Source of the DNA: an uncultured Colwellia sp.
GTDB taxonomy: Bacteria > Pseudomonadota > Gammaproteobacteria > Enterobacterales > Alteromonadaceae
DNA length: 64,000 bases
Reading direction: 5' to 3'
Assembly (NCBI GenBank): GCA_913049915.1
Contig: CAJWZC010000001.1
Location: forward strand, 55,271 to 119,270
The translations under genes and the position numbers were made by a program. Position 1 is the first letter of the stretch; each line of letters starts with the position of its first letter. Positions 1 through 60,614 of the stretch are shown in pieces. Under the pieces are notes generated by a model. That model was not told the origin of the DNA and ran no database searches. It was given only the letters and a program-made list of their open reading frames with translations.

Positions 1-14
1 AATAAGAGAAATAC

Positions 15-6000: not shown

Positions 6001-6179
6001 AATGGAAGTATCGCGGGCAAATAACGCCGCTAAATAAACAAATGTCATTAGATGTGCATATTAGCGAAATCATCAATACAGCAGGTGAGGTACGTTTGAT
6101 TGGCGATGCCAATTTATCTAAAGATGGCCTACGCATATATCAAGTTAAAGATATTGTATTAAGTATCGTAGAAGCATAA
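15..6179 (+). CDS. pfaC: Omega-3 PUFA synthase subunit PfaC (KS-CLF-DH-DH)
   Basis: Multidomain subunit of the iterative PUFA synthase (polyketide-synthase-like) that makes EPA/DHA-type fatty acids in the cytoplasm. An N-terminal ketosynthase covers about residues 1-470, with the nucleophile in DAACASSC (Cys near 219), HATGTP near 354 and a SNLGH motif. A second KS fold (about 500-920) lacks the cysteine motif (SAEENSVYRC at that place), so it is a chain-length factor. Two FabA-like hot-dog dehydratase regions follow, marked by HFKGDQVMAG near 1462 and HFHQDPVMPG near 1949. The length of 2054 aa and the domain order are typical of PfaC in Shewanella, Colwellia and Moritella. The window starts 14 bp before the ATG, with a weak AAGAGAAA ribosome site; pfaA and pfaB are presumably upstream, outside the window. 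The identification is firm; the exact product (EPA or DHA) cannot be read from this gene. Confidence 0.96.
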   Translation: MENIAVVGIANLFPGSSAPEEFWQQLLTKQDCRSKATYEQMGADVEKYIGKKGDTDKFYCVHGGYIRGFNFDAQSFCHSSNISGTKDLTSNDLTIEYLTQLDDLNQWSLYVTQQALVDAGYWRSDKLANCGVILGNLSFPTKSSNHLFMPLYHQVVDDTLKQVIDNDFELTPFSKDESEQPVHEGLVHEDNALVAGYPAALLAKAAGLGGAHFSLDAACASSCYSVKLACDYLHTGKADMMLAGAVSGADPMFVNMGFSIFQAYPANNIHAPFDKNSQGLFAGEGAGMMVLKRHSDAVRDGDKIHAIIKGGALSNDGKGEFVLSPNTKGQVLVYERAYENAQVNPADVDYIECHATGTPKGDNVELASMETFFSRYGLFGDKSDGNTEVKKPLLGSVKSNLGHLLTAAGMPGMTKAIWALNHGKIPGTINLNEPLSSKKGYFGAAQMPTQTIDWPVKANNSQKPRTAGVSVFGFGGSNAHLVLQQPTYTLETATLSATKTVAKPAQPLAIVGMDAHFGSAHNLSAFKTLLDKKATTFRELPPKRWKGINNNTAVMNALALNKAPMGGYVEDFELDFLRFKVPPNEQDCLIPQQLMMMKVADNAAKDANLTPGSNVAVLVAMGMELELHQYRGRVNLTTQIEDSLLQQGIELSFEQRETLTNIAKDGVAFAAQLNQYTSFIGNIMASRISALWDFSGPAITVSAEENSVYRCVELAQNLFQTSDVDAVIIAGVDLSGSIENITLRQHFGEVDSSNLTQHLSDNALLDNSLLNNNQWKVGEGAAAFVLKPKSNVDEQGVYATIDGIAFVNDKSAQAIEKAASNALAQANINANDISQVEAHNSGFIAENEAEKASLPALYQGKTISSVKSQIGHTFNASGAASIIKVALALSAQSNTSSITCSNRTNGKEYSAINGLGKDGSCAHLVLSSSANSRAKVTNQLENAVNQTAVKKRPQLIKTIALGGNAIDETIIKASQQPNVSSYLSAIKVAFNTRQLSLIANPSHPAKIDLAQIKPRFSQMKNTVQTMQITQSNDAELTVSSGATVNKSTNPNVITKNSTQTLRTHISQVSKSISQETATHKAFLTNRQLAQEQICKMLTLQVEASFDSAFNSVSIGNAKAIPVLIPASMQQLVAVSAAENVDSGINNSVQGSFKVKGPAGYQYPPLQLKERFNQPSEIIWDTADLVEFAEGDIGNVFGEDYRIIDSYSRRVRLPSTDYLLVSRVTALDATVNEYKKAYMCTEYDIPLDAPFLIDGQIPWSVSVESGQCDLLLIAYIGIDFQAKGERVYRLLDCELTFLEEMAFGGETLRYEIHIDSYAKNGEQLLFFFHYDCYVGDKKVLIMRNGCAGFFTDEELKDGKGVIHNDTDKAQLTNAKKSVFTPLMQRNRDIYDYADMMKLVNGDVGGCFGSNYDQKGRNPSLKFSSKKFLMIERITKVNAAGGHWGLGLLEGQKDLDPQHWYFPCHFKGDQVMAGSLMSEGCGQMAMFYMLSLGMHSGVNNARFQPMPGESQTVRCRGQVLPQHNTLTYRMEVTEMGMKPFPFLKANIDIILDDKVVVDFKNLSVMITEQDENSPYPVTLPDNVKLVQGISQWTTEKQLSEQVVDLAELDERGIAPFKHAHRPLMKVMSDLSSPKEKGVTPIQHFEAPMVAGQNRVPNQAPFTPWHMFEFATGNISKCFGPDFDIYSNKGAKGRIPPRTPCGDLQVVTQVVEVQGKRLDLKKQSSCIAEYYVPSDAWYFTKNSHEGWMPYSLIMEIALQPNGFISGYMGTTLKYPDKDLFFRNLDGSGDLIKQVDLRGKTIVNKSVLLSTTMAGGMIVQSFTFELYVKNENVAVSLESHDLVRHELFYKGTAVFGYFGADALTNQLGIDNGRITHAWYVDNETPAANIETINLRDEHLSFYQAPVNKPHYKLAGGQMNFIDTVSIVEGGGSAGVAYVYGERTIDPTDWFFRYHFHQDPVMPGSLGIEAIIELMQTYALKNDLGKAFTNPRFTAPNSVIKWKYRGQITPLNKQMSLDVHISEIINTAGEVRLIGDANLSKDGLRIYQVKDIVLSIVEA

Positions 6180-6189
6180 ATAGCACTCG

Positions 6190-6375
6190 TCATTCCCACA
6201 TTGTCTTAGTAGCACCCCTGTTCGCTGGATGTATTGAAATAGGCATAACGCGAATAAGTGAAATGGATACCCGATCAGATACTTCGGGTATGAGGTAAAT
6301 AAGCAAAAATTTATTTATTGTTAAGGTATAAGCCTCGATGACGTCATCCTCGAGTTTACTTAATCGAGGATCCAG
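6190..6375. repeat. REP-like palindromic repeat cluster between pfaC and pfaD
   Basis: The 246-bp gap between pfaC and pfaD holds short palindromes rather than a gene. ATACCCGA (6267-6274) pairs perfectly with TCGGGTAT (6284-6291), and TCCTCGA (6347-6353) pairs with TCGAGGA (6364-6370), preceded by TGACGTCA. The flanking GTCATCC...GGATCCAG wording resembles the dispersed REP/BIME-type units common in gammaproteobacteria. In an mRNA running from pfaC into pfaD these would form hairpins, which could attenuate or stabilise the transcript. That role is inference. Confidence 0.5.
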
Positions 6376-6425
6376 CTCTATGAACCAATTTAAGAATAAT
6401 ACTAAATAAAAGAACAGGAAATAAT

Positions 6426-8024
6426 ATGTCAAATATCGTTTTTAATACTGCCAGAGCCATTGATTGGGCATGGAAAGTTAACGCTAATGAAATTAACAGT
6501 GGCAACGCACAAATAAAGTCAGCGTTAATGGATTTAACAAAACCAGTATATGTCGCAAAATCGTCGACTGGCTTAGGTGTCGTCAGTGCTACCGCTACTT
6601 CAGGTAGTACTGATGTATTAGCTTTTGCCCAAAAGCTTACTCCTCAAGATTTAGGCGATGATGCATATAAAAAACAACATGGTGTTAAATACGCATATCA
6701 TGGCGGTGCTATGGCTAATGGTATCGCCTCAGTTGAATTAGTGGTCGCTTTAGGTAAAGCTGGTTTCTTATGCTCATTTGGCGCTGCGGGTTTAGTACCT
6801 GATGCGGTAGAAGATGCGATTAAACGTATTCAAGCTGTATTGCCTAATGGCCCTTACGCGGTTAACTTAATTCATGCTCCAGCGGAAGAAGCTTTAGAGC
6901 GTGGCGCAGTTGAGCGATTTTTAAAACTTGGTGTTAAAACTGTTGAAGCCTCAGCTTACTTAGGTTTAACCGAACATATTGTTTGGTATCGATTAGCGGG
7001 TTTAAGCGAAAATAGTGATGGTAGTGTCAATATTGGTAACAAAGTTATTGCGAAAGTATCTCGCACGGAAGTAGGACGACGTTTTATGGAGCCAGCACCG
7101 CAAAAACTCATTGATAAACTACTTAGTCAAGGCAAGATAACTCCAGAGCAAGCAGAGCTATCAAAACGCGTACCAATGGCTGATGATATTACTGCCGAAG
7201 CTGATTCTGGCGGCCATACCGATAATCGTCCCTTCTTAACTTTATTACCGACTATCATCGCACTTCGTGATGAAGTTCAGGCACAATATAACTTCTCTCC
7301 CGCATTACGTGTTGGTGCTGGTGGTGGTATTGGTACTCCTGAATCAGCCTTAGCTGCATTTAATATGGGCGCTGCCTATATTGTACTTGGTTCAGTAAAC
7401 CAAGCCTGTGTTGAAGCTGGCGCTTCAGAGCATACCCGTAAACTATTAGCTGATGTTGAAATGGCTGATGTGACAATGGCTCCTGCCGCTGATATGTTTG
7501 AAATGGGTGTTAAGTTACAAGTCGTTAAGCGTGGTTCAATGTTCGCTATGCGTGCGAAGAAACTTTATGAGCTATATATTAACTATGACTCAATTGAAGG
7601 TATTCCAGCAGAAGAGCGGATTAAGATTGAAAAACAAATATTTAGGTCTAATCTCGATGATGTGTGGGCAGGAACTGAGGCCTTCTTTGCGGAACGTGAT
7701 CCTGAAATGTTAGCACGAGCACAGTCTAGCCCAAAACGTAAAATGGCGTTAATTTTCCGTTGGTATTTAGGCTTAAGTTCGCGTTGGTCAAATACCGGTG
7801 AAAAAGGCCGTGAAATGGATTATCAAATTTGGGCTGGTCCAAGTTTAGGCGCATTTAATAGCTGGGTAAAAGGTACGTACCTAGAGGATTACACTCGCCG
7901 TTACGCCGTTGATGTTGCTTTGCATATGTTGAAAGGTGCTGCCTACTTACAACGAGTAAACCAGTTGAAATTACAAGGTGTTACACTAACTACGGCTTTA
8001 GCAAGTTATCATAGCGAAGACTAG
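6426..8024 (+). CDS. pfaD: PUFA synthase enoyl reductase PfaD
   Basis: Stand-alone trans-acting enoyl reductase of the PUFA synthase. It is an FMN-dependent TIM-barrel protein of the nitronate monooxygenase/2-nitropropane dioxygenase superfamily and acts on intermediates carried on PfaA ACP domains. Visible signs are the glycine-rich phosphate-binding stretches (VGAGGGIGTPESAL, IVLGSVNQ), the family-specific AYHGGAMANGIAS segment near the N terminus, and a C-terminal extension (RKMALIFRWYLGLSSRW) that distinguishes PfaD from ordinary nitronate monooxygenases. The 532-aa length fits the family. The start has a good AGGAAATAAT ribosome site. It lies downstream of pfaC on the same strand, separated by REP-like repeats, so it is probably the last pfa gene of the operon. 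Confidence 0.95.
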   Translation: MSNIVFNTARAIDWAWKVNANEINSGNAQIKSALMDLTKPVYVAKSSTGLGVVSATATSGSTDVLAFAQKLTPQDLGDDAYKKQHGVKYAYHGGAMANGIASVELVVALGKAGFLCSFGAAGLVPDAVEDAIKRIQAVLPNGPYAVNLIHAPAEEALERGAVERFLKLGVKTVEASAYLGLTEHIVWYRLAGLSENSDGSVNIGNKVIAKVSRTEVGRRFMEPAPQKLIDKLLSQGKITPEQAELSKRVPMADDITAEADSGGHTDNRPFLTLLPTIIALRDEVQAQYNFSPALRVGAGGGIGTPESALAAFNMGAAYIVLGSVNQACVEAGASEHTRKLLADVEMADVTMAPAADMFEMGVKLQVVKRGSMFAMRAKKLYELYINYDSIEGIPAEERIKIEKQIFRSNLDDVWAGTEAFFAERDPEMLARAQSSPKRKMALIFRWYLGLSSRWSNTGEKGREMDYQIWAGPSLGAFNSWVKGTYLEDYTRRYAVDVALHMLKGAAYLQRVNQLKLQGVTLTTALASYHSED

Positions 8025-8035
8025 TATTATAAAAG

Positions 8036-8070
8036 TATTAGGCTAGTTACAGACTTTATTTAGCCTAATA
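8036..8070 (+). terminator. Hairpin after pfaD
   Basis: TATTAGGCTA (8036-8045) and TAGCCTAATA (8061-8070) form a perfect 10-bp stem with a 15-nt loop, 11 bp after the pfaD stop. No T-run follows, so it is either a weak terminator or a 3'-end-stabilising hairpin for the pfa transcript. Confidence 0.4.
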
Positions 8071-8106
8071 TTAGAAATTCTGATAATAAATAAACAAGGA
8101 AATATT

Positions 8107-8409
8107 ATGTCAACATGTACTGAGTTTGCAGTTTTTAAGGTTAAAAAAGCTAACTTAGCGCGTATTGTCGCGTTAAGTGAGTCACTTTTTCTTGAAATTA
8201 ATGTAGATAATAAAAATATTATTGCTCATGAAATATTAGTAAAAACTGATAATGAAGAAGAGATATGTTGGCATTTAACGTGGGCTAATATTGAAGCCGT
8301 AGAGGCAAGTTCATACAAGTGGTCAACTTACCCAAGTGCTTCAGAAATAGAAAGTTTAGTAGGTAAAAAACTCTATTATGGCCATTTTGTTGCTGTTTTT
8401 GCTAATTAA
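8107..8409 (+). CDS. Small unknown protein downstream of pfaD
   Basis: A 100-aa cytoplasmic protein without signal peptide or membrane segment that I do not recognise with confidence. It has a ribosome site (AAGGAAATATT) and ordinary codon use. The N-terminal FAVFKVKKANLARIVALSESLF and a C-terminal YGHFVAVF strand would suit a small alpha/beta-barrel fold, such as the dimeric monooxygenase-like (ABM) fold, but this is a guess. It follows pfaD by 82 bp on the same strand, beyond a hairpin, so co-transcription is possible but unproven. No catalytic motif is evident. Confidence 0.7.
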   Translation: MSTCTEFAVFKVKKANLARIVALSESLFLEINVDNKNIIAHEILVKTDNEEEICWHLTWANIEAVEASSYKWSTYPSASEIESLVGKKLYYGHFVAVFAN

Positions 8410-8495
8410 TAGTAACCCAAAACATAAGGAAGGTACCGAGATTAGCTATCAGTCTTAAGGACCTTCTCTTACAACTTATTTTTATATCGCTAGTG

Positions 8496-8790
8496 TTAGG
8501 TAACTACCTTGGTATAAGTAGTACGGACAATATCAACCACTTCTACCGAAATAGAACAGGCCTTAAACCATAGTTCTTCTAATATTGAAAGTACCAAGTT
8601 TGCTAATATGACCTTCTGCTGAATATTATGCTCAGACAATACCTTCAACGTCACGTGAATAAAATCTAGCTGATCAGAGCAGCTTTGTAAAACGACGGTC
8701 TGGTATTAAATAAATGGTATTACGTACTTTAATATCACTATATAGCGGCATAACCGAAACGTTCAAGGCAATGATATAATAAGCCGTGAT
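8496..8790 (-). pseudogene. Degenerate 5-carboxymethyl-2-hydroxymuconate isomerase-like gene
   Basis: Minus-strand coding remnant too broken for the ORF track. One frame reads LYSDIKVRNTIYLIPD, and after a frame change it continues as DFIHVTLKVLSEHNIQQKV... ending SVEVVDIVRTTYTKVVT and a stop. The spacing and wording (DIKVR..., FIHVTLKVL, SISVEVVDI) resemble the tautomerase-superfamily CHMI proteins (HpaF-like, homoprotocatechuate pathway). The frameshift lies near 8680-8700. No intact start was found, so this is a decayed gene filling most of the 433-bp gap between its neighbours. The family call is moderate; the coding remnant itself is clear. Confidence 0.5.
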
Positions 8791-8842
8791 ATACCTTACT
8801 GCTTAGCTTCTATTAGCTAAGTAAACTGAACTCAGGTTAACT

Positions 8843-9244
8843 ATGAAAGATTGTAATCAATGCGGGAAATGTTGTATCAAATACGGAGGAGGCGATCTTT
8901 CAGCAACAAAAGAAGAAATTGATCTATGGGAAATATTTAACCCAGAAATCTTCAAATTCGTTAAGAATAACGAAATATGGTTCGACCCCAAATCGGGCGT
9001 AAGTCTAAAAACTTGTCCTTTTCTCGATATTGCGCCAAAAAAAGATCCGTCAGCGCCCAATATGTATACCTGCAGCATTTACTTGGACAGACCTGAAGAC
9101 TGTCGACATTACCCGAGTTTAATTGCTGAAATGATCAGAGATGAATGTGAAATGATTGAAGTCGTCGATTTAGATAATACAAAAAAAGCGCAAGTAAAGT
9201 TAGATATATTGATGAGTGATAGTCGGCCACCAAGTAATTCATAA
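8843..9244 (+). CDS. YkgJ-family cysteine-cluster protein
   Basis: A 133-aa protein opening with CNQCGKCCIKYGGG, the CxxCxxCC signature of the YkgJ/Fe-S or zinc cluster family (UPF0153-like). Further cysteines occur in TCPFLD, YTCSIY and RPEDCRHYP, which complete the usual set of metal ligands. The biochemical role of the family is not established; a metal cluster is expected. It is a single-gene unit between a decayed isomerase gene and the convergent PhzF gene. A second, shorter member of the same broad family lies at 61.5 kb. Confidence 0.85.
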   Translation: MKDCNQCGKCCIKYGGGDLSATKEEIDLWEIFNPEIFKFVKNNEIWFDPKSGVSLKTCPFLDIAPKKDPSAPNMYTCSIYLDRPEDCRHYPSLIAEMIRDECEMIEVVDLDNTKKAQVKLDILMSDSRPPSNS

Positions 9245-9297
9245 GCCCACTTTATGATAGTCACTGTATGTCATTCGTTTGAAGTTTAGCGAAAATT

Positions 9298-10092
9298 TTA
9301 TAGGGTTATTTCGCCGACCATGTAATCAATAGCATTGCCGGTCAAAATAACTCTGTCTTTATTCAGTTTACAAAAAACTAGACCACTACGCATTGATAGT
9401 TGCCGCGCTATTAACGTTTTTTTGTTGAGTTTTTCTGCCCAATATGGCGTTAGTTCGCAGTGCGCAGAACCAGTAATAGGGTCTTCATTAACTCTTAATT
9501 TAGGGAAAAAGCACCGACTGATAAAATCTACATCAGCATCATTTGCTGGCGCAGTGACAACAACGCCCCTTAAATCAATATTCAACCACAATGAAAGATC
9601 AGGGGTTAACTCTGTAACTTCTTCTTCACTATCGAGCACAATAAGATAATCAAATGCTGACAAAATTTGTAATGGTCTTATCCCCCCTAAACCGTTAATC
9701 AAGTCAGTAGGAATATTTGAATTTAATTCAATAGGCATTGAAGCAGGGAAGTCCATACTGTAGCCAGAATTTGTTTGACTGACAATCAGCCTACCACTTT
9801 TAGTTTGGAAGTTTATTTGAGCTTTACTGTAGCCTAAATGTTTATATAATACATGAGCGCACGCTAACGTGGCATGACCACATAAATCTACTTCCTCTAA
9901 TGGGGTAAACCAACGCAACTGAATATCATTGACGCTATAGACAAAAAATGCAGTTTCCGATAAGTTATTTTCTTCAGCTATTTTTTGAAGAATGTCATCA
10001 TCAAGCCAATCATTTAATGGAATTATAGCGGCAGGGTTTCCTTCAAAAGCTTTTGAGGCAAAGGCATCAACTTGATAAATTTGTAATTTCAT
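9298..10092 (-). CDS. PhzF-family isomerase/epimerase-like protein (copy 1)
   Basis: A 264-aa protein of the PhzF/diaminopimelate-epimerase fold. Family landmarks include QVDAFASKAFEGNPAAI at the N terminus, AEENNLSETAFFV with the conserved catalytic-type Glu, LRWFTPLEEVDLCGHATLA, and DPITGSAHCELTPYW near the C terminus. Members catalyse isomerisations, but most, like this one, have unknown substrates; no phenazine genes are nearby. A paralogue of the same length class lies at 11.2-12.0 kb inside the cassette-like region. The start has a weak ribosome site (AGGGCACTC). Confidence 0.9.
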   Translation of the reverse strand: MKLQIYQVDAFASKAFEGNPAAIIPLNDWLDDDILQKIAEENNLSETAFFVYSVNDIQLRWFTPLEEVDLCGHATLACAHVLYKHLGYSKAQINFQTKSGRLIVSQTNSGYSMDFPASMPIELNSNIPTDLINGLGGIRPLQILSAFDYLIVLDSEEEVTELTPDLSLWLNIDLRGVVVTAPANDADVDFISRCFFPKLRVNEDPITGSAHCELTPYWAEKLNKKTLIARQLSMRSGLVFCKLNKDRVILTGNAIDYMVGEITL

Positions 10093-10171
10093 GAGTGCCC
10101 TAGAGGATAATATAAAGTAAAGTCTACCGTGCTTATGAACAGACTAATATTAGAGGCTAAACTGAGATAAA

Positions 10172-10207
10172 GGTAAAATATAACGATTTTTTAAGACTAT
10201 AAACTTA
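10172..10207 (-). other. Collapsed attC-like remnant between PhzF and the 119-aa gene
   Basis: On the minus strand the stop codon of the 119-aa gene lies in GAGTAAGTTTATAG, and only about 25 bp later comes TCGTTATATTTTACC. That second piece looks like the right-hand core (GTTATAT) of the neighbouring attC-like repeats. It may be an attC that has lost its stem. The evidence is weak because only the short core remains. Confidence 0.25.
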
Positions 10208-10564
10208 CTCAAAAAAAACCCAGATTCTTTTACTGGAATTCGAGTACGAATACTTTAATTCTAATAAATGATTTGCTAAATTTACGGCATTGACATCTGT
10301 GTTTCCCCAAGCACTTTCTTCAGACCAATGCTCGGCAATATTTTTCAGGCTTTCATCATCGATTATTGATAATGTTTCAGAAAAATTAACAGACAATAAC
10401 CACAGGTTATCCGTTTGAGCAGAGCTACCACTTTTGAAACAATCGAGTAGCTCGCTGATATTATCTTTAGTAAAACGACCACCGCCAAGAACAGAATCAT
10501 CAGGAATGTCATCAGAACTTTTGAAAGCGTTATCATCTACTGCTGTAAAGAAGGTTACATCCAT
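10205..10564 (-). CDS. Unknown 119-aa cassette-type gene product
   Basis: An acidic 119-aa soluble protein (MDVTFFTAVDDNAF... ending RIWVFFE) with no signal peptide, membrane segment or motif I recognise. The segment DDSVLGGGRFTKDNISELLDCF and a Trp-rich C-terminal third are its only notable features. It starts 20 bp after the right-hand core of attC-like site A, with no room for a long promoter, as expected of an integron cassette gene. The reading frame is intact, unlike most of its neighbours. Confidence 0.65.
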   Translation of the reverse strand: MDVTFFTAVDDNAFKSSDDIPDDSVLGGGRFTKDNISELLDCFKSGSSAQTDNLWLLSVNFSETLSIIDDESLKNIAEHWSEESAWGNTDVNAVNLANHLLELKYSYSNSSKRIWVFFE

Positions 10565-10583
10565 AATCTATTCTCTATGTATT

Positions 10584-10685
10584 TATAATGCCTAGTTATG
10601 AGCTAAGTGATAGTTGACTAAAATGTGTAAGGAGATAGATCCAATCAACTGAACCATATTATTTCTTGTTTAGCCGCTTGTTACT
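10584..10685 (-). repeat. attC-like site A
   Basis: Read on the minus strand, the site opens with AGTAACAAGCGG (R''/L''-like) and closes with AGGCATTATAAA (L'/R'-like). Between these, CAGTTGA and TCAACT form a stem around a variable loop that includes CTCCTTACACATTTTA. Length (102 bp), core positions and stem wording match sites B-E in this window. The 119-aa gene begins just beyond its R' end. Confidence 0.7.
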
Positions 10686-10771
10686 ACCTTTTTTAATACT
10701 AAAACGGTTAAAGCCGATGTGATAAAGGTTAGTCCTGCGCCAATATTTAATATATTAATAAGATGAGTTTT
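10670..10771 (-). pseudogene. Remnant of a small membrane peptide gene upstream of attC A
   Basis: An open stretch of 33 codons ending LNIGAGLTFITSALTVLVLKKVVTSG and a stop lies within the first bases of attC A. It contains one hydrophobic segment. No ATG is present: the open frame begins after TAA, at a run of A residues where a start codon may have been lost by slippage. It looks like the 3' part of a former cassette gene. Confidence 0.3.
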
Positions 10772-10846
10772 TTATTGAAGTAAATTAGTGGTTTTTATAT
10801 AAAACACTTTATTAACATGGGTTTATAGCTATTAAGAGAGTAAAGT

Positions 10847-11023
10847 ATGCGTCATGAATTATCATTTGTATTGTCACTGTCCTCAGGATTAAAAAATATT
10901 ATAAGAAAAAGGCTATCTCTAGACGTTTGTATTATTAATATTAGTTCAAAAGTAGTGGTGAGGATACGAAATAAAATACTAAAACTATGCCTTTTTACTA
11001 AAAGTAAACACGCTAAGGTATAA
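10847..11023 (+). other. Gap 10686-11224 with one doubtful 58-codon ORF
   Basis: Between attC A and the second PhzF gene there are about 540 bp with no recognisable gene. The only open frame worth recording is a plus-strand ORF starting MRHELSFVLSLSSGL, with a loose GAGAG upstream. It runs against the local gene direction and resembles nothing known to me, so it may be chance. Confidence 0.2.
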
Positions 11024-11224
11024 TTTTTTCAAACTTCCATTGCAAAGATAGATCTTCCTTGACCACTACAAACGTCCTAGTAGTATGGAGATCATTAGAT
11101 AATATACTGATCAACAAAGGCAGTTGATTATTTTTTTATCTTCTTCTTAATAAACATACACAGTTATCTAGCGTTTTATATTCCATTAGCGAACAGTAAT
11201 TAGTACCTGATAAAGCAAGAACGA

Positions 11225-12016
11225 CTAAACTTGAATTGTACCTTTTAAATACTGTACGGCTTTACCTAAAAGAGAAACTTTATTATCCTCAACGTCACAT
11301 ATTATATTACCGCCACGTTTAGAAGACTGATATGCAATTAACTTAGACTTATTGAGCTTCCCAGCCCAATAAGGTGCTAAACCAGTATGAATAGAACCCG
11401 TAACGGGATCTTCATCACCACCATTCGCAGGCCAGAAATAACGAGAAACAAAGTCATAATCGTTTGATTTAGCGGTTACAACAACATCATATGGGGCGAG
11501 CTGTTTTAATAACTCATTATTTGGAACGACAGAAGTCACATCAACTTCGTTTTCATACACAACAAAGTATGCTTGATTGTTCAATAATACTTCCTTTGGG
11601 GCAATTGAAAGACCATTTAATAATGCTAATGGTATATCGCTAATATTTTCAGGTGGTCTACTCGGGAAATCCATTTTAATATAACCGTTATCCATTTTCG
11701 TAATAGATAAATTACCTACTGCTTTAGCGTAAAAACTAATATTTTTCACATCATGATTTTTAGAAAAAATAACAAATGAAGATGCTAATGTGGCATGACC
11801 ACAAAAGTCAATTTCAGTTATTGGAGAAAACCAACGAATTTCATAGTTATGAATATCGAGTTTTTTAACATACGCAGTTTCTGATAAATTATTTTCAATA
11901 GCAATGGACTGCATAAGCTCATCAGAAAGCCAATCCTTGGTAATAATTACTGCAGCTGAGTTTCCTTTAAACACCGCATCTGTGAATGCGTCAACAATAT
12001 TGATTTCTAATTCCAT
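11225..12016 (-). CDS. PhzF-family isomerase/epimerase-like protein (copy 2, cassette-type)
   Basis: Second PhzF-fold protein, about 263 aa. It shows the same landmarks: IVDAFTDAVFKGNSAAVI, IENNLSETAYV with the catalytic-type Glu, IRWFSPITEIDFCGHATLA and DPVTGSIHTGLAPYW. The ORF track begins at an upstream TTG; the ATG at 12016 (MELEINIVDAF) is preferred because GGAG lies about 12 bases before it and because the first residues then align with copy 1. It begins about 30 bp after the R' core of attC-like site B, so it sits as a cassette gene. The substrate is unknown. Confidence 0.9.
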   Translation of the reverse strand: MELEINIVDAFTDAVFKGNSAAVIITKDWLSDELMQSIAIENNLSETAYVKKLDIHNYEIRWFSPITEIDFCGHATLASSFVIFSKNHDVKNISFYAKAVGNLSITKMDNGYIKMDFPSRPPENISDIPLALLNGLSIAPKEVLLNNQAYFVVYENEVDVTSVVPNNELLKQLAPYDVVVTAKSNDYDFVSRYFWPANGGDEDPVTGSIHTGLAPYWAGKLNKSKLIAYQSSKRGGNIICDVEDNKVSLLGKAVQYLKGTIQV

Positions 12017-12047
12017 TTGAGAATATATCTCCAAAGATATATTTACT

Positions 12048-12140
12048 TTATAACGCCAAATTAAGCGGTGTAAAGCAGTTAGTTAAAATTTATGATAAAT
12101 GAAATATAGCCAACTATGTGGACTTCCCTAGGTTAACAAC
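12048..12140 (-). repeat. attC-like site B
   Basis: The minus strand reads GTTGTTAACC at the left core, then ATAGTTGGC...TAACTAACT as imperfect stem arms around ATATTTCATTTATCATAAA, ending CTTAATTTGGCGTTATAA at the right core. TTTGGCGTTATA is a typical L'/R' ending of gammaproteobacterial attC sites. The PhzF copy 2 start follows directly. Confidence 0.65.
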
Positions 12141-12305
12141 AAGACTCTATTACAAAGAAATAAATACGAACTTATGAACGAGTTTAGACTCTGATATTTA
12201 TACAAACTAGTTGTCAAATCTTTAAAAAATAGCACTGAGCGCTTAGTTAGCTACTGACTAAACTAGCTGGTTTTATCTTTGTTTTTACCCTTTTTGTTGT
12301 ATAAC

Positions 12306-12339
12306 TGAAACCAGTTTAATTGAAATTAAACTGGTTTCA
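12306..12339. repeat. Perfect 15-bp palindrome in the gap 12141-12644
   Basis: TGAAACCAGTTTAAT and ATTAAACTGGTTTCA flank the 4-nt loop TGAA. No T-run follows on either strand, so it is not a standard terminator. The remaining bases from 12141 to 12644 show no gene I can support. The region may contain the lost attC that should follow the thioesterase gene. Confidence 0.5.
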
Positions 12340-12644
12340 TGACCTGCATGAGTTGCTTTTATTTCCTGTAATTCGATGACAAGCCTCAAATATGATCGTT
12401 ATGGGTTTACTATTGATAAGCCAGTAAAGGAATTCGTTTGGTGTCATCCCAATATTTGATTACACCTTTTTGTTTCTATAAATGCAAACTTGAATAACTT
12501 ATTTTGTTAAATCAACAGCAACCTTAGAACAATACATATCAGGATCCTTTATAATATATTTGTGTGATAACTTTTATATTATCTCACTCTTTAGGGAGTC
12601 TAATTATCTGCTTAGCGTTGGTTTTAGTAACTTGTGATGAATTT

Positions 12645-13067
12645 TTATTTCGCATAAAGAACTATCTGGGTACAGCGAAAGATAGCAATTGTTTTTCCCG
12701 AGTCTTTATTTGAGACAGTAGCATCCCAAACCTGAGTTGTTTTTCCAACATGAATCGCTTGTGCAATACACTCCACCATCCCTTCTCGTGCTGTACCTAG
12801 ATGATTCGATTTTAACTCAATAGTAGTAAACCCTGTTGCATTATCAGGAAGATTGGCGAAACAACCATACCCAGCACATGTATCTGCTAAAGATACTACA
12901 CTACCAGCATGAAAATATCCGTTTGCGGAAAGTAACGATTTTTGAACTTGTAATTATGCTCTAAGTTCTCCAGGAAGTACATCAGTAACAACAATCCCAA
13001 GGTGCCCAGGCAGATTTTCAAGACCAAATTTATTGAAGAACTCAGGAGTAAATTTTGAAGAGTTCAT
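12645..13067 (-). pseudogene. PaaI-type hot-dog thioesterase gene with in-frame stop
   Basis: One frame runs from ATG (13067, ribosome site TAAGGA) to TAA at 12645 and reads as a PaaI/YbgC-like acyl-CoA thioesterase: NKFGLENLPGHLGI, then GYFHAGSVVSLADTCAGYG, FTTIELKSNHLG and a C-terminal GKTIAIFRCTQIVLY. A single TAA interrupts it at 12954-12956 (LRA-stop-LQVQ). This is most simply a nonsense mutation of a glutamine, lysine or glutamate codon. The rest of the frame is intact, so the inactivation is either recent or bypassed. The gene follows attC-like site C directly, as a cassette gene would. Confidence 0.85.
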
Positions 13068-13075
13068 AATATTCC

Positions 13076-13175
13076 TTACGCTTACATAAGCTGAAAATTA
13101 TAGTTGGCTATAAGATTTGAGGAACGAAATACAGCTAACTGTAATTTTTACATTTAATGTTCTTGTATGGATAAT
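13076..13175 (-). repeat. attC-like site C (degenerate right core)
   Basis: The minus strand contains AAAATTACAGTTAGCTGTATTTCG...TTATAGCCAACTATAATTTTC, the same stem arms as sites D and E. It then ends CAGCTTATGTAAGCGTAAGG. The expected GCGTTATA core has been shortened to GCGTAAGG, so the site is probably no longer recombinogenic. The left end is uncertain because IS110-related sequence begins nearby. Confidence 0.6.
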
Positions 13176-13199
13176 ATATCCACATTCAATGTTCTTTTT

Positions 13200-14205
13200 A
13201 AAACTATTTTAGGTAAAGTGAAGCCCAAGCTTTGGCTGCAACCAAAGTCTTTTTATACGGTAGTTCGATTGATTGCTGGCTCCTCTATTGAGAGACCGAT
13301 AACAAGGTGGAACACCGTATAAAACGCCAAGCACTAAACTCGAATAGTCAAATGGGCCTCGAGCTCGAATAGTAGACAAAGTCAGTTTATTATCAATACG
13401 TAAATTAATCAAAATGAAATTAACGTTGGTGTTGACACAGATAAAGTACAATTCGACATTTACATACGCCCATTAGATATTTATTTCGTCGTAAGTAACG
13501 ATAAAATTGTTATAAAAGAACCCATTACTGAAATCAAAAAGCTAAAACAGATAAATTGGATGTACAATTAATCACGTATTATGCAGAGGCTATTAAGCCA
13601 AGACTATCTCAGCTAAAACCGGAGCAGATATGGCTGATGAGTAATTCACTCTCTTGCAGAAGTCAGTTAATAGGTATACCAACAATGGAGAAAAGCGTCT
13701 AAAATTATGCCTAAAGCAATAATATCATCCATTAAACTGGTACTTACGGTATTAAAAATCAGTTGGATAAAATTACAAAAAAATATAGAAACATATTGAA
13801 AGCTGTTACGAATATAAAATTAAAAATGACAAAATATAGAGCGTTTCTGGTGTTAGAAATGTTGTCGCGTTTAACTTGATGAATGAAATGCCAGAGCTAG
13901 GCTATATTACTAATAAAGAAGCGTCATCCTTGCTTGATGTTGTCTCATCTAATCGTGAAAGTGGCTAGTATAAAGGTAAGCGAATAATGAGTGGACAAAT
14001 TCGAACCGCGATACACATGGTAATGATATCAGCTATTCAAGGTGATCTAACATTTAAAACACTATATTAACGATTAGTTACGGCTTTAAACCCCAAAAAA
14101 ATAGCGATAATTTCTGCATTAGGATGCTAGTTATTACGCTAAATTTTATAGCAAGAGATGGTATCTATTAGGATCCTAAAATGAATTAAAAGTTAGGATT
14201 TGATC
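13200..14205 (+). mobile_element. Decayed, internally deleted IS110-family element
   Basis: Fragments of one transposase read in order on the plus strand. First comes VGVDTDKVQFDIYIRPLDIY (from about 13413), then after a junction at about 13541 KTDKLDVQLITYYAEAIKP, and later VVAFNLMNEMPELGYITNKE followed by NRESG-stop-YKGKR. These are the DEDD (RuvC-like) N-terminal domain and the Transposase_20 C-terminal domain of IS110-family enzymes. About 40-45 codons between the first two fragments are missing, removing the expected Glu of the catalytic set. At least five stops occur in the C-terminal part. About 200 bp of non-coding sequence precedes the transposase and only about 50 bp follows it. The element lies directly after the stop codon and half-site of the membrane-protein cassette. 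Confidence 0.8.
13254..13373 (+). ncRNA. Possible bridge-RNA relic in the IS110 left end
   Basis: The non-coding 5' part of the IS110 remnant has RNA-like structure. TATACGGT (13254-13261) pairs perfectly with ACCGTATA (13314-13321) across a 52-nt interior, and the 10-mer CTCGAATAGT occurs twice (13339-13348 and 13364-13373). IS110-group elements encode a structured bridge RNA in this position, which makes the idea reasonable. No alignment to known bridge RNAs was possible, and the element is dead. Confidence 0.3.
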
Positions 14206-14208
14206 CCA

Positions 14209-14222
14209 TAGTCACTTGTTAT
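14209..14222 (-). repeat. attC left half-site overlapping the stop of the small membrane gene
   Basis: On the minus strand the gene ends GTAATATAACAAGTGAC. The TAA stop lies inside ATATAACAAG, the R''/L''-like start found in the other sites. The rest of this attC is replaced by the IS110 remnant. Confidence 0.45.
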
Positions 14223-14494
14223 ATTACAAATGCAACGATAATTGCTGTTACCGCTAATATACTGTACTCCGGCGTTCCAGTTGGTACTTTAGTCATCAGT
14301 AAAAAACAAACAAAAGCTAACGCAAATAATATAGCACTGCCAACGAATACCCCAATTAATGTATGTCCCATAATTAAACCAATAATGGCTAAAGGAATAC
14401 TAAATAGTAAGGCTGAAAAGTAAGGTTCCTTCTTCACTAAATATAATTTATATGACAGAGCTAACATCAAAAGTTTGATAATGAAAAAGAGCAT
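14219..14494 (-). CDS. Small integral membrane protein (cassette-type)
   Basis: A 91-aa protein, nearly all hydrophobic, with about three predicted membrane spans (LFFIIKLLMLALSYKLYL, LLFSIPLAIIGLIMGHTLIGVFVGSAILFALAFVCFLLM and YSILAVTAIIVAFVI). I recognise no family. It begins 14 bp after the R' core of attC-like site D with AAGG as ribosome site, and its stop codon lies inside a further attC-like half-site. It is therefore framed on both sides like a gene cassette. The frame is intact. Confidence 0.65.
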   Translation of the reverse strand: MLFFIIKLLMLALSYKLYLVKKEPYFSALLFSIPLAIIGLIMGHTLIGVFVGSAILFALAFVCFLLMTKVPTGTPEYSILAVTAIIVAFVI

Positions 14495-14508
14495 GAATAT
14501 ACCTTGTA

Positions 14509-14606
14509 ATATAACACCCTAATAAGAGGCAAATTGTAGTTGTCTATAATGTGAGCAGAGCGAAACAGCCAACTGTAATTTGTCTCGCTTAAACAGCTTA
14601 TTATAG
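14509..14606 (-). repeat. attC-like site D
   Basis: The minus strand reads TTATAATAAGCTG at the left core, stem arms AAATTACAGTTGGCTG and AGACAACTACAATTTGCC around a CGCTCTGCTCAC loop, then CTCTTATTAGGGTGTTATAT at the right core and CAAGG before the next ATG. It aligns over its whole length with site E. Confidence 0.75.
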
Positions 14607-14611
14607 ATAAA

Positions 14612-14625
14612 TTAACGCCAAATTT
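14612..14625 (-). repeat. Partial attC right end next to site D
   Basis: The minus strand AAATTTGGCGTTAAT matches the TTTGGCGTTATAA ending of site B. It lies a few bases before the left core of site D. This suggests a second attC whose gene, stem or both were lost, leaving two sites back to back. Confidence 0.35.
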
Positions 14626-14791
14626 AATATTTGTGTAATGATGATATGTCACAATCTATTATCTGTATATAAATATTACGTTCATTTCAAATTTTCTCTA
14701 GATCGTATAAGCAGAAATAGTAGTTTGTAGGGTCTTCTGCCCATTAGCCTTCAGTTTTTACCTATACAGAAGTCAATAACTGGTTGTCATT

Positions 14792-14935
14792 CTAACACCA
14801 AACTAAAACTAAATAATCGTAACTAGCACCATCATTAAAAATAATAAAAGAAGGCGTACATAACCAGTCAATGTCACGTTCAGATTTTAAGTTATTAAGG
14901 TACTGTAAATATTTTGATTTTACTAGTTGTTCAAC
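14792..14935 (-). pseudogene. Unidentified coding remnant downstream of the DUF2726 gene
   Basis: A minus-strand open stretch reads VEQLVKSKYLQYLNNLKSERDIDWL and continues CTPSFIIFNDGASYDYLVLVWC to a TAG stop. It begins right after a TGA, in a frame shifted from the DUF2726/zinc-ribbon remnant. It could be the shifted C terminus of that gene or a separate small gene. No family is recognised. Confidence 0.3.
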
Positions 14936-14948
14936 TCAGGGCGTATTT

Positions 14949-15598
14949 CTATACATCAACTTCTTGGATATATCTACACTTAGGGAAGCTACTATACGCT
15001 AAAAAATTGTTTCCCTTATTCTTGCCTTTTTGCGCAGTTTTAACAGTCAATTCAGACGAACACTTAGGACATGTTTTACTATTATCTTTTGCAGAGATAG
15101 TTAACTCTACTAAAACTTAGGGAGTAGAAAATAATTAATTTTTAATTTCATCCACTGCATAGTTAGCTAACGCCTTGAATCGATGTAGTTTTAAACGTGC
15201 AGTTTCACATGCCGATTCAACGAATTGTCATGTTTAATTTGTTTTTGCTGAGTGTGACTTTTATCATCAAGCTCAATGACTCCGATAACGGAAAGATCTT
15301 TAGGGTTGCATAGGACAAAATCAAAATGTTTGGCTGATATTTTATTAAATGTAATTTGCCACTGGCTTCGGTTAAGTCCTTTTCTTGGTTTAAGGATATC
15401 GGCGATTCTTACTTTACCAACTACAACTACTTTATCTTCACAAGCAAGTTTTAATACCCCATAAAAATATCGTTCGGCTAGTGTAAATAGTGATCCACAT
15501 AATTCATATGGTGTTACCATTTTTTTAGAACTTTTGTTCTTAGATAGGAATATGAATAATAAAATTATAACAATGATAAAGAGTACAATAAATTCCAT
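14949..15598 (-). pseudogene. Frameshifted DUF2726 / topoisomerase-type zinc-ribbon protein
   Basis: Begins as a 135-aa ORF with an N-terminal membrane anchor (FIVLFIIVIILLFIFL) and a DUF2726 nuclease-like domain (TLAERYFYGVL, FDFVLCNPKDLSVIGVIELDD). Near 15225 the frame is lost. The other frame continues ESACETARLKLHRFKALANYAVDEIKN to a stop, and beyond it TCPKCSSELTVKTAQKGKNKGNNF and FPKCRY form a C4 zinc ribbon whose third cysteine position has become Tyr (LAYSSFPKC). A full-length protein of about 215 aa was therefore broken by at least one frameshift and one nonsense change. The start follows attC-like site E by 14 bp, with AAGGTG as ribosome site. It is a cassette gene in decay. Confidence 0.85.
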
Positions 15599-15612
15599 TT
15601 GATCACCTTGAA

Positions 15613-15713
15613 ATATAACGCCTCACAAGAGGCAAATAATAGTTGGTTAAAATAAGTGACGAAGGAGCAAAAACCAACTGTTATTTGTTCAACTTTAAAA
15701 CCCTTGTTAGCTG
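15613..15713 (-). repeat. attC-like site E
   Basis: Clearest site on this strand. It opens GCTAACAAGGG, with the TAA being the stop codon of the upstream alpha/beta hydrolase. The stem arms are AAATAACAGTTGGTT and AACCAACTATTATTT (one mismatch) around TTTGCTCCTTCGTCACTTATTTT. The right end is CTCTTGTGAGGCGTTATAT. CTAAC and GTTAT sit at the base of the fold as R''/R' cores. Confidence 0.8.
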
Positions 15714-16488
15714 TTTTTACAGCAAACCAATTTATTAATAAAGTCCTGATATGCTTTTATTGCTTTGTCTTTTCTCATTGTTTCGCCATGCTCAGTATCG
15801 GGTATGATAGCCAAAACCTTAATCTGATTTGAAGAAATATTGTAAAGTTCTTTCGAGTTTTCCTCTGGAGTAGTTGAATCATCTTCACCAATTAAGAACA
15901 GTAATGGTTCTCTATATTCTTTAATGAAATCATCATTATTTATTTCTGCTAATTCAGGTGATAAATTAACTGAATAAAATAGTTTTGACCAACTAGGTAT
16001 CAAATTATTAACTAACACCAGAACTGTGCTAATGGCACCATCAAGATTTAACGCATCTATTTTTTTATTAGCTACAACATAACTTGCAACTAAAGATCCC
16101 ATTGATAAACCATGGATAGTTGTTGGTAAATTAGTAGGGAATTCACTTTTTTAAAAATCAAAAAATTCTTAATACATCAGCTCGTAAGCTAATAAGAGAT
16201 AAGTTCTCTTTTTTATCACTTACTCCCATACCTCTATAATCAAACCAAATCACATTTGCGGGTAATAATGAAAACTTATTTAATATTTTTGATGAAGCGC
16301 TAATTTTCATACCGTTAGCACTGAAAAAAACAATATTCACCAAAGCATCCTTGTTTATTAATTTAACAGGCTCTAAGCGTAATACCATCCTCAGTAGTTA
16401 AACTTACAGCTGCTACAACCGCCGAAATCTTCGCTTCAGTTAGGTCTGTTTGAATTTAAGTGATATTGAGTTTCTTCTGGTTATTCAT
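15707..16488 (-). pseudogene. Alpha/beta hydrolase gene with several lesions
   Basis: A cytoplasmic esterase-like alpha/beta hydrolase, once about 255 aa. The N terminus MNNQKKLNIT is followed by an in-frame TAA and then IQTDLTEAKISAVVAAVSLTTED. After one frameshift comes NVIWFDYRGMGVSDKKE (oxyanion/HG-region strand). After a second frameshift and a TAA comes THGLSMGSLVASY with the nucleophile elbow GLSMGS, then LLFLIGEDDSTTP with the Asp, and PDTEHGETM with the His. The catalytic residues are all still readable, but four lesions separate them. The terminal TAA lies inside the left core of attC E. The two ORF-track entries at 15707 and 16158 are pieces of this one gene. Confidence 0.85.
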
Positions 16489-16529
16489 CTTTATAAATAA
16501 ATGATTCAGCTGTATTTTTTCCGTTTGAA

Positions 16530-16545
16530 GCGCTTGTTATAAACC
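16530..16545 (-). repeat. attC left half-site downstream of the lipoprotein gene
   Basis: The minus strand GGTTTATAACAAGCGC follows the lipoprotein stop by 1-2 bp and matches the R''/L'' start TAACAAGC of the other sites. The stem and right core are missing: the alpha/beta hydrolase start lies only about 40 bp further on. Confidence 0.5.
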
Positions 16546-16546
16546 T

Positions 16547-16906
16547 TTAAACACTACAGTCATCTTTGACATATAGTTCTTCATAATCGTTACTATCGGG
16601 TGCAGTAAAATCTATGTTCTCGGCAATTTTTTCATTCGCTTTATCAATAGTAAACACATGTATATTTCACATCGGATCGACACATAGCCGAGGAGAATAA
16701 AGTTCGTCGATACGACCGCAACTTTCGGATTTAATTTCTATATTTGCGTCTAACAAATAACTTCTAGTTTCTAAAATAGTTAAAGTATTTCCCTGACACA
16801 TTATCTCACCTGTACTTATATATATTTCGACATCATTATTTACATCAGATTTATCACAACCACTGAGAATAATGAATAGTAGTAAAATTAAATAAGTTAT
16901 TTTCAT
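16547..16906 (-). pseudogene. Small lipoprotein gene with in-frame TGA
   Basis: From ATG 16906 (ribosome site GGAAG five bases upstream) the frame encodes a lipoprotein signal peptide MKITYLILLLFIILSGC with lipobox LSGC, followed by SDVNNDVEIYISTGEIMCQGN and more cysteines. A TGA at 16667-16669 interrupts it. The same frame then stays open for 39 codons, NIHVFTIDKANEKIAENIDF through YVKDDCSV, to a TAA beside an attC half-site. One nonsense mutation in a protein of about 119 aa is the simplest reading. The upstream in-frame ATG (16918) has poorer spacing. Function unknown. Confidence 0.7.
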
Positions 16907-16930
16907 TGAGTCTTCCATAACTTTATTAAG

Positions 16931-17148
16931 GTTTATAACAGTTTAATATGAGGAAAAATTCCTTCTTTATACAAGGTGAGATTAATCGTCCATAATTTGA
17001 TAACATCAAGAGGTTACTTTATTATTATTTTATAATCAAAAAGTTAAAAATAAATAATAAAGTGGTTGATGTATTAAAGAAGGAGATTTTCCTGCTTTCT
17101 TGTAGAAATAAGGGATTTAACAATTACTGTGTATAAATACAGTAATTG
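16931..17148. repeat. Boundary region: GTTATAAAC core, large imperfect inverted repeat and hairpin
   Basis: Upstream of the lipoprotein cassette the minus strand has CTGTTATAAACC (16931-16942), a core-like site. Beyond it lies a large imperfect inverted repeat. AGGAAAAATTCCTTCTTTAT (16951-16970) pairs with ATTAAAGAAGGAGATTTTCCT (17073-17093), and an inner arm containing ACATCAA...CTTTATTATT pairs with AATAATAAAG...TTGATGT. A perfect 10-bp hairpin CAATTACTGT/ACAGTAATTG follows at 17121-17148. No gene is seen from 16919 to 17340. Confidence 0.45.
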
Positions 17149-17340
17149 TAGGGCGGATATTAATACTACTTTTTTATTAAAAAGCTTTTAGTTAAAATCA
17201 TTATTACTGACATAGTGGATTTCGCTTAGTCTTCTTGTGAGATAGCTTCATTACTCGTCTTCATTTACATAATAAGTAATCACAGTATAATTACGGCCAT
17301 ATTATTAATAGTATTTAATCAAAGGCATTTACTCTTCAGC

Positions 17341-19026
17341 ATGGCAGAGCAAAAAAATCATCCAGAACTAACTATCACCCAAGTTCCTCATACTGAAGGC
17401 AATACTCCTATTTCAATAACATCTAAGCTAATGAAGTCATATTCAGTAAAGCCTGAGCTAATAAATAAGGATACACAGCTTATACATCAAAGTGGTGATG
17501 AAAGTGAAGTGATCACTCCTAAAATTGTGCTCGCGACACTTAATGCAAGGTACTTTCACACCAGTTTTGGTTTACGTTATCTTTATGCGAATTTAAAAGA
17601 ATTACAGGATGTTTGTGAAATAAAAGAGTTTATTATCCAAACACGCGCCATGGATATTGTTGAACAAATTTTAGCAGTAAAACCAAGTATTATTGGTTTT
17701 GGTGTTTATATCTGGAACATTGTTGAAACGACAGCTGTTGTTAATTTATTAAAAGTTATCGCACCAGAAGTTAATATTGTTTTAGGTGGGCCTGAGGTCA
17801 GTTATGAAACTGAGCAACAAGCGATTGTCCAGTGTGCCGATTATGTATTAACGGGGCCGGCAGATTTAAGTTTCTATCAACTGTGTAAAGATATTATAAG
17901 CAATACGCCGCCAGATAAAAAAATCGTTCACTCAAAGCCGGTAGAGCTAAGCGACTTAGAGTTACCTTATCAATATTATACCGATGAAGATTTAACGCAC
18001 CGTTTACTGTACGTTGAAGCGTCGCGTGGTTGCCCCTTTAAATGTGAATTTTGTTTATCATCTTTGGACAAAACATCGGTACCCTTTGCGTTAGACTTAT
18101 TTCTTGAACAAATGGAAATACTCTACCAACGTGGAGCGAGAAACTTTAAATTTATCGATCGAACCTTTAATTTAAATATTAAAACTACCATGCAAATCAT
18201 GCAGTTTTTCTTAGACAAAATGACAGACGATCTTTATCTTCATTTTGAAGTGGTACCCGATCACCTACCTAGAAAATTAAAGGAGTTGTTAGCGCAGTTT
18301 CCTAAAGGTAGTTTACAATTTGAAATTGGTATACAAACCTTTAATATCGAAGTACAAAAGAATATCAGTAGAAAGCAAAATAACGCAAAATCAAAAGAGA
18401 ATTTAATCTGGCTAAAAGATAATACCCATGCACATATTCATGCAGATCTCATTTTTGGTTTACCCGGTGAGACGTTAGACACCTTTAAAGATAGTTTCAA
18501 TCAACTTTATCATTGCCGACCGCATGAAATTCAAATGGGTATTTTGAAACGTTTGAGAGGTAGTCCAATCATTCGACATACCAAAGCATTCGACTTACGT
18601 TTTAATCCCTTACCGCCCTTTAATATATTAAGTACTGACAGGGTCAGTTTTGCTACCATGCAACGTATTAATCGCTTTGCACGTTATTGGGACATGATTG
18701 GGAATTCAGGGCGTTTTAAATACGCTTTACCCCATATATTGTCGGATAAACCGTTTGATGATTTTATGGCGATTACCGAGTGGATTTTTAACAAAACAGG
18801 ACAAATCCATAAAATTAGTCTGAAAAAGTTATTTGAGTTAATTTCACAAGCGGTAGAAGCCTTATTTCCAGAAAAACATCAACTCGTGATTGAGACAATT
18901 GAACAAGACTACGATGCAGCACAATTGAAAAGCTTATTTAGTGGACTCAAACTTTATGCCGTCCCTGAGATAGAAACGGTAAGCAAAAATAAAGCATTAA
19001 AACGCCAACAACAACACATGAGTTAA
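17341..19026 (+). CDS. B12-binding radical SAM protein (DUF4080 type)
   Basis: A 561-aa radical SAM enzyme. A cobalamin-binding Rossmann domain occupies about residues 60-200 (KIVLATLNARYFHTSFGLRY, IIGFGVYIWN, VNIVLGGPEVSYE). The radical SAM core follows with ASRGCPFKCEFC, whose three cysteines at 231, 235 and 238 bind the 4Fe-4S cluster, then FKFIDRTFNLN and HADLIFGLPGET. The C-terminal region (RINRFARYWDMIGNSGRF) matches the DUF4080 extension. The substrate is unknown. It is monocistronic with a terminator downstream. The first about 55 residues are low in conservation-like pattern, so the true start may be the internal Met at MKSYSV; the ATG at 17341 has no strong ribosome site. Confidence 0.88.
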   Translation: MAEQKNHPELTITQVPHTEGNTPISITSKLMKSYSVKPELINKDTQLIHQSGDESEVITPKIVLATLNARYFHTSFGLRYLYANLKELQDVCEIKEFIIQTRAMDIVEQILAVKPSIIGFGVYIWNIVETTAVVNLLKVIAPEVNIVLGGPEVSYETEQQAIVQCADYVLTGPADLSFYQLCKDIISNTPPDKKIVHSKPVELSDLELPYQYYTDEDLTHRLLYVEASRGCPFKCEFCLSSLDKTSVPFALDLFLEQMEILYQRGARNFKFIDRTFNLNIKTTMQIMQFFLDKMTDDLYLHFEVVPDHLPRKLKELLAQFPKGSLQFEIGIQTFNIEVQKNISRKQNNAKSKENLIWLKDNTHAHIHADLIFGLPGETLDTFKDSFNQLYHCRPHEIQMGILKRLRGSPIIRHTKAFDLRFNPLPPFNILSTDRVSFATMQRINRFARYWDMIGNSGRFKYALPHILSDKPFDDFMAITEWIFNKTGQIHKISLKKLFELISQAVEALFPEKHQLVIETIEQDYDAAQLKSLFSGLKLYAVPEIETVSKNKALKRQQQHMS

Positions 19027-60333: not shown

Positions 60334-60614
60334 TTTCTTCTCGCTGCCTATTGAACACCTTCGTTCAGATATTTTGCTGACCATTTTGGTTGTTTTGTAA
60401 TAAGTGGCGTTGTTTTATAGTTGTTTCGCGAGGCAAGTATTTGTCATGGTTATTCTTTTTCGGTATTGCGAGTACAAGCTTATTTCGCGTAATATACGGT
60501 TAGCAAAAAATTCAAAGGGAAAAAGTACTATTGACCATACTTTTATCTATCATCAATTTTAGTAAACATTATCTTGCCCTTAACCTGGGTTTTATCTTTT
60601 TGGAGTATTTTTAA

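Follow-up and report, generated by a model that had tools for sequence, protein, structure and literature searches.

The array of repeats and small genes at 9.3-17 kb of the window (the whole 64-kb stretch of DNA that was analysed, bases 55271-119270 of contig C1) is in all probability a decayed chromosomal integron of Colwellia, which has lost its integrase gene, intI, and has retained attI together with the SOS-controlled promoter of intI. The genome is that of an uncultured Colwellia sp. (3.8 Mb in 178 contigs). The left end of the window is a polyunsaturated fatty acid synthase (pfa) cluster, in which pfaC and pfaD were assigned by sequence, and a radical-SAM (rSAM) gene lies to the right of the array (Table 1). 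A first-pass annotation, made from the sequence of the window, had read the repeats as a relic integron array, i.e. an attC cluster lacking an integrase, and our results support that reading. They contradict the accompanying picture of a bare attC cluster without a platform, as attI and the LexA-boxed intI promoter persist at 16937-17142 and the array is therefore still attached to attI.

The repeats were scored with a covariance model (R1) built from 32 attC sites of intact integrons and arrays in other Colwellia genomes, none of them from the window. The R1 alignment folds as a hairpin of attC type, with changes on both sides at 14 of its 25 pairs (covariation), and by this model five sites of the array are imperfect palindromes with a conserved structure. 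These are the five minus-strand repeats A-E of the first-pass annotation, all of which were recovered, at 71 to 26 bits. The covariance search that it had proposed for the array and for 57-60 kb returned these five matches as well as one at 58.1 kb and one at 60.5 kb, and not the absence of matches that it had named as pointing to a different repeat family. B, C and D have imperfect versions of the TAACAAG-like left end that it had described, and its statement that genes start close behind the right ends holds throughout the array, where an ATG follows each right end after 7-33 bp. The partial ends that it had listed are of several kinds: the one at 16.53 kb is indeed the 5' half of an attC site and that at 14.21 kb an R'' half beside a decayed IS110-type transposase; but that at 14.61 kb is the left end of D, that at 10.18 kb is a short R'-like motif without support from the model, and that at 16.93 kb is the core site of attI and no attC end. 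Folding of the bottom strands as single-stranded DNA, likewise suggested as a check, gave a divided outcome: E, C and D fold better than shuffles (z -3.0, -2.1 and -1.7, respectively), A and B no longer do (z +1.9 and +0.6); an attC site of an intact relative reached z -4.3 in the same test. About 30 more attC sites of this family are spread over the other contigs of the genome, and some of them are near-consensus. Near-consensus attC arrays were seen on contigs C99 (L157 9772-12639) and C142 (L156), the attI side of which lies beyond the contig ends, and one of these arrays directly follows hemC-hemD-hemX-hemY. Within the window, a second and separate relic cluster at 57.9-61.1 kb contains the two additional matches; no attI was found beside this cluster.

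The window repeats are Colwellia attC sites that lie between cassette-like genes, several of which are broken, and the cargo of the array is typical of cassettes. Open reading frames and family matches bear out the earlier observation that small, unrelated genes of the same direction alternate with the repeats. The hydrolase-like gene is split in two reading frames (16158-16388 and 15707-16102), and the insertion sequence remnant at 13150-14160 was recognised by a translated match to an IS110 element in another Colwellia locus, L030 (PF01548). The gene at 10205-10564 has a homologue, 59% identical, between attC sites of another bacterium's intact integron (L074). The second PhzF-family gene (9298-10092) is perhaps the last cassette; R1 found no attC beyond it. 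Because the attC sites match R1, genes are broken and an IS110 remnant lies beside a half attC, we regard the array as real and decaying. IS110-family elements were also observed repeatedly in or beside attC sites in all arrays of the genome G010 (L031, L030 and L032).

The platform end of the window array was identified by homology. The crossover core site of attI, TTATAACAG, lies at 16933-16941 with the cassettes to its left on the minus strand; the attI segment starts exactly at this core and has a perfect LexA box as its end, in the position that the box occupies before the intact intI genes of relatives. The segment is 76-86% identical to the segments directly upstream of intI on contig C71 of the same genome (76%), where intI is a pseudogene, and in C. 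psychrerythraea GAB14E (G015), G010 and isolate DT_18 (G016), where intI is intact. Since the segment is homologous to the region upstream of intI, the platform end is present and only intI is missing. At the position where the start of intI is expected, the window has a scar that is common to the intI-less attI copies. Relative to the copy at the same locus in Colwellia sp. 75C3 (G009; L021), about 250 bp, including a terminator and the tail of serS, have been deleted from the window copy. The first-pass annotation had reported no tyrosine recombinase in the window, and we obtained no IntI match in the 64 kb; thus no intI adjoins the window attI. IntI matches occur elsewhere in the genome, on contigs C71, C77, C78, C17 and C2, and the sole full-length match is the C71 pseudogene, which has stops and a frame break. 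The genome-wide search for intI that had been recommended therefore did find one recognisable gene, on C71, but a decayed one. Short IntI-like fragments were observed at the starts of C77 (1-83) and C78 (44-172; L008 and L009), which are perhaps remnants of a further integrase.

Table 1 Features of the two attC clusters in the window, with IS91-family elements at attI in other loci (positions are those of the window unless a locus is named; R1, attC covariance model; R2, attI sequence profile).
Feature	Position	Strand	Basis
Second PhzF-family gene	9298-10092	-	PF02567, E=2e-58; 44% identical to first PhzF
Cassette gene, function not assigned	10205-10564	-	ORF and homologue in L074
attC A, degenerate	10585-10683	-	R1 40.0 bits, E=2e-8
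Cassette gene, PhzF-family isomerase	11225-12016	-	PF02567, E=3e-52; TIGR00654 above cut-off
attC B, degenerate	12050-12135	-	R1 25.8 bits, E=1.6e-4
Cassette pseudogene, thioesterase (4HBT), in-frame stop	12645-13067	-	PF03061, E=3e-14
attC C	13075-13168	-	R1 56.7 bits, E=3e-13
Decayed IS110-family insertion sequence inside the array	13150-14160	.	many stops in translation
Half attC, R'' only, beside IS110-type remnant	14208-14225	-	read directly
Cassette gene, small membrane protein, 91 aa	14219-14494	-	ORF; no family match (Pfam, NCBIfam)
attC D	14511-14603	-	R1 61.1 bits, E=2e-14
Cassette gene, DUF2726	15191-15598	-	PF10881, E=4e-29
attC E	15615-15709	-	R1 70.8 bits, E=4e-17
Second cassette gene, alpha/beta-hydrolase-like by eye	15707-16388	-	ORFs; Pfam matches neither piece
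Half attC, truncated, 5' half (R'' side) only	16520-16543	-	read directly; missed by R1
First cassette gene, next to attI; predicted small lipoprotein of 83 aa	16667-16918	-	ORF; no Pfam or NCBIfam match
attI-to-LexA-box segment, 206 bp, platform remnant	16937-17142	+	R2 145.7 bits, E=1e-43
LexA (SOS) box CTGTGTATAAATACAG, promoter of the lost intI	17127-17142	+	perfect CTGT-N8-ACAG
Scar common to the intI-less attI family, TTAATACTACTTTTTTATTAA, decayed here	17143-17203	+	alignment with L021, L036, L034 and L020
rSAM gene, right of the array	17341-19026		
attC, second separate relic cluster	58072-58164	+	R1 34.2 bits, E=7e-7
DinB-family gene in second cluster	59037-59579		
attC, weak, second cluster	60501-60595	+	R1 23.8 bits, E=6e-4
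SUKH-family gene, directly after weak attC	60615-61073	+	
IS91-family element at attI	L201 480-2560; L200 17276-19350; L203 114-2194; L202 604-end		

A search with the attI sequence profile (R2, threshold of at least 50 bits) of 39 Colwellia genomes, most of the counted genomes being draft assemblies, revealed 90 attI segments in 28 of them. An IntI match lies within 300 bp, with attI upstream of it, in 15 of the 90. The other 75 are without intI, and one of these is an artefact (G009:C16), where the contig ends and an insertion sequence has split intI off. In the same genome (L024 and L022), the insertion sequence was seen to interrupt the LexA box, with attI on one side and a frameshifted intI on the other, so that this platform is divided between contigs C21 and C16. 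In a hand tally of a subset of loci, 26 of 28 intI-less copies have attC sites on the array side, in the right orientation and within 2.4 kb; one such copy, in G020, is followed by a run of 15 strong, near-consensus attC sites. Multiple attI copies also occur in other genera of the family (8 in the complete genome G062, 10 in G100 and 4 in G137), and a search of plasmid and phage records returned no match to the segment. A perfect LexA box is present in 11 of 12 intI-linked copies but in only 25 of 60 intI-less ones (p=0.003). This scarcity of perfect boxes indicates that many intI-less copies are decaying and are not maintained as platforms.

The distribution of these copies among loci bears on their origin. 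Two relatives (L060 and L073) carry an intact intI directly beside serS, and in L060 a terminator lies between the convergent ends of the two genes. At the serS locus of the window's own genome, of Colwellia sp. 75C3 and of C. psychrerythraea GAB14E, attI, the LexA box and the terminator are found without intI. Intergenic intI-less attI copies also occupy the rSAM locus, in the window and at the orthologous site of Colwellia sp. 75C3, and a site beside the gene for phosphopantetheinyl transferase (PPTase) in the window's own genome, G006 and C. psychrerythraea GAB14E. A scar that follows the LexA box (TTAAGACTATTTTGTTATTAA and variants) is common to the copies without intI at the serS, rSAM and PPTase loci, and several of the scar-bearing copies still contain the terminator and remnants of the serS end. 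The window attI displays the pattern of this family, i.e. attI, LexA box, scar and no intI, with its terminator lost. The intact intI beside serS is likely to mark the ancestral platform. As the scar is common to these copies, and the terminator and serS tail to several, the simplest history would be that intI was lost once, at serS, and that the attI left behind was afterwards copied to other places. We propose a series of events, in which the ancestral platform would have lain beside serS and would have lost its intI, and the remaining attI, together with the scar and the terminator, would have been copied to other loci, including that of the window. An intact intI elsewhere would have inserted and removed cassettes at the intI-less sites in trans, until the integrase gene of the window's own genome decayed in its turn and left the window array as a relic.

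Orthologous intI-less attI sites of different species head arrays without any common cassette. The serS arrays are similar across species at the level of attC only, and the rSAM arrays have none of that similarity, in a comparison limited to 1 kb of Colwellia sp. 75C3. The attI copies themselves behave differently from their surroundings. Core and flank neighbours were both available for 46 copies; the nearest attI core is in the same genome for 22 of these and the nearest flank for only 3, which leaves 19 discordant copies in the one direction versus 0 in the other (p=4e-6, paired test; this test replaced a nearest-neighbour shuffle test, which ignores phylogeny). In the window's own genome, all four attI copies have a core nearest to that of another copy of the same genome and a flank whose nearest neighbour is at a locus of like kind in a different species. 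In C. psychrerythraea GAB14E, the core of the serS copy is 97% identical to that of the intI-linked attI of the same genome, and the flanks are unrelated. The attI cores are homogenised within a genome and the flanks group by locus, i.e. attI undergoes concerted evolution, which fits a shared integrase and plain gene conversion alike. The turnover of cassettes and the homogenised cores speak indirectly for use of the intI-less sites in the lineage, and the likeness of attI within a genome points to a single integrase that may act at many of them. However, this homogenisation could also be the result of gene conversion or of recent copying without IntI, and orthologous sites could owe their differing arrays to a homologous exchange of entire arrays among attI copies and not to the insertion of one cassette at a time. 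Judged from sequence comparison, the arguments for and against use of the intI-less sites in trans are evenly poised. We infer that those of Colwellia may have been used in this manner and that in some species they may be still; in the window's own genome, every attI copy is without a working integrase. Cassettes common to the platforms of the complete genome G010 were considered as proof of exchange and were rejected, as the near-identical stretches are IS110-family insertion sequences. A PEGA-domain cassette is 85% identical between the C71 and C99 arrays of the window's own genome, a likeness that is suggestive only as a sign of exchange. More tentatively still, and with somewhat less than even confidence, Colwellia and some related genera might possess a distributed integron, in which one SOS-controlled integrase would serve several attI sites across the chromosome, each heading an array. 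These sites, although without intI, would be kept exchangeable with the integrase's own attI by concerted evolution, and the attI segment would be the dispersing element.

By the standard definition of a CALIN (at least two attC sites and no intI nearby), the window cluster is a CALIN, set apart by its attI and SOS promoter and by the dispersed, homogenised family to which these belong. CALINs are common, and the literature describes the insertion of cassettes by IntI at secondary sites (attG), from which an ordinary CALIN would arise that was never attached to a platform. Such an origin is very improbable for the window array, given that a 206-bp attI with a perfect LexA box stands at its head in the right orientation, and likewise at the orthologous locus of Colwellia sp. 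75C3; it is a possible origin of the other cluster, at 58-60 kb, beside which we found no attI. The repeats might in principle belong to a family unrelated to integrons that mimics attC, and Rfam at the gathering threshold indeed has no match anywhere in the window. We consider this next to inconceivable, since the window sites match, with strong covariation, attC sites that lie beside intact IntI genes, and are interspersed with genes of the cassette type, all of which contradicts such a reading.

Two further explanations concern the intI-less copies as a family. Each of them could represent a separate, complete integron that lost its intI independently, with no dispersal and no use in trans. 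The intI fragments elsewhere (C77 and C78 of the window's own genome) and the decay of LexA boxes without intI are in line with such losses. Nevertheless, a single post-LexA scar in the serS, rSAM and PPTase copies, several of which also have one and the same terminator and serS tail, arrays that differ fully between species at orthologous intI-less sites, and the run of 15 near-consensus attC sites that follows an attI without intI in G020 all argue against independent losses, which we therefore hold to be rather unlikely, though worth serious attention. Alternatively, since several intI-less copies keep a LexA box with a strong terminator about 100 bp further on, the element from box to terminator could encode an SOS-induced small RNA, intI having been lost and attI kept by accident. 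Yet the sequence between box and terminator is poorly conserved, the LexA boxes decay, the terminator of the window copy is deleted, and Rfam has no match in the window. The terminator is moreover explained as the old one between intI and serS, as found in L060. A small RNA is thus a most improbable explanation.

If intI-less attI copies were dispersed from serS, as we propose, attI could have been carried by cassette packaging, by an IS91-family element or by an island between direct repeats. IntI of class 2 integrons is known to package attI fragments, in one case of 238 nt, into excisable cassettes (PMC12901181). Four attI copies from three genomes contain an IS91-family element with genes for a tyrosine recombinase and a Y2 transposase, and in each of them the insertion is precisely at the attI crossover (ACTG^TTGAACTAAACCGC) and the spacing is the same; this precision and the identical spacing suggest that the element targets attI site-specifically. 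On contig C1 itself, 30.6 kb comprising the pfa island and the array lie between direct attI repeats at 41.6 and 72.2 kb. The PPTase-pfaR-pfa island with the array spans 41.6-72.4 kb (L020 and positions 1-17145 of the window), and its outer neighbours are SEC-C/DUF1186 and DTW genes on one side and the rSAM gene on the other, genes that adjoin in most relatives. We also observed that attI adjoins the PPTase end of the pfa cluster in G002, and that intI is convergent with pfaD in Pseudoalteromonas denitrificans (L098).

The window array resembles the sedentary chromosomal integrons of Colwellia sp. E2M01 (L060) and C. psychrerythraea GAB14E (L057/L025) in its attC family and attI segment, in the LexA-boxed intI promoter, in the orientation of the array and in the kind of cargo. 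It differs from them in having no intI, broken cassette genes and some attC sites that are unable to fold. The CALINs of Xanthomonas (PMC12444791) are similarly attC arrays without a neighbouring intI, and standard tools would score the window array as a CALIN; the window array, unlike those, keeps attI and the intI promoter. Closer in another respect are the delta-attI-type cassettes of class 1 and class 2 integrons, including delta-attI2-238, in which attI likewise lies away from intI and the attI fragments, one of 238 nt, have been shown to recombine (PMC12901181). In those cassettes, which lie inside an integron, an attI fragment takes the terminal place of attC, whereas in the family described here a whole attI together with the promoter of intI stands at the head of separate arrays, at many loci of the chromosome. 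IntegronFinder searches for attI of class 1 only (PMC9024848), and this blindness of standard software to other attI sites would explain why intI-less copies go unseen. We found no description of multiple or orphan attI sites in the open-access literature; subscription journals lay outside the scope of our search and the novelty of the finding is therefore uncertain.

Integrons are usually described as having one integrase and one attI, and attC clusters elsewhere in a genome as degraded leftovers. The window is a clear example of the decay of a platform after the loss of intI. If intI-less attI sites are functional heads of arrays that are used in trans, some of the clusters now catalogued as CALINs would form a working multi-site system, which would provide several expression sites per genome for cassettes and would make the attI copies points of chromosomal exchange.
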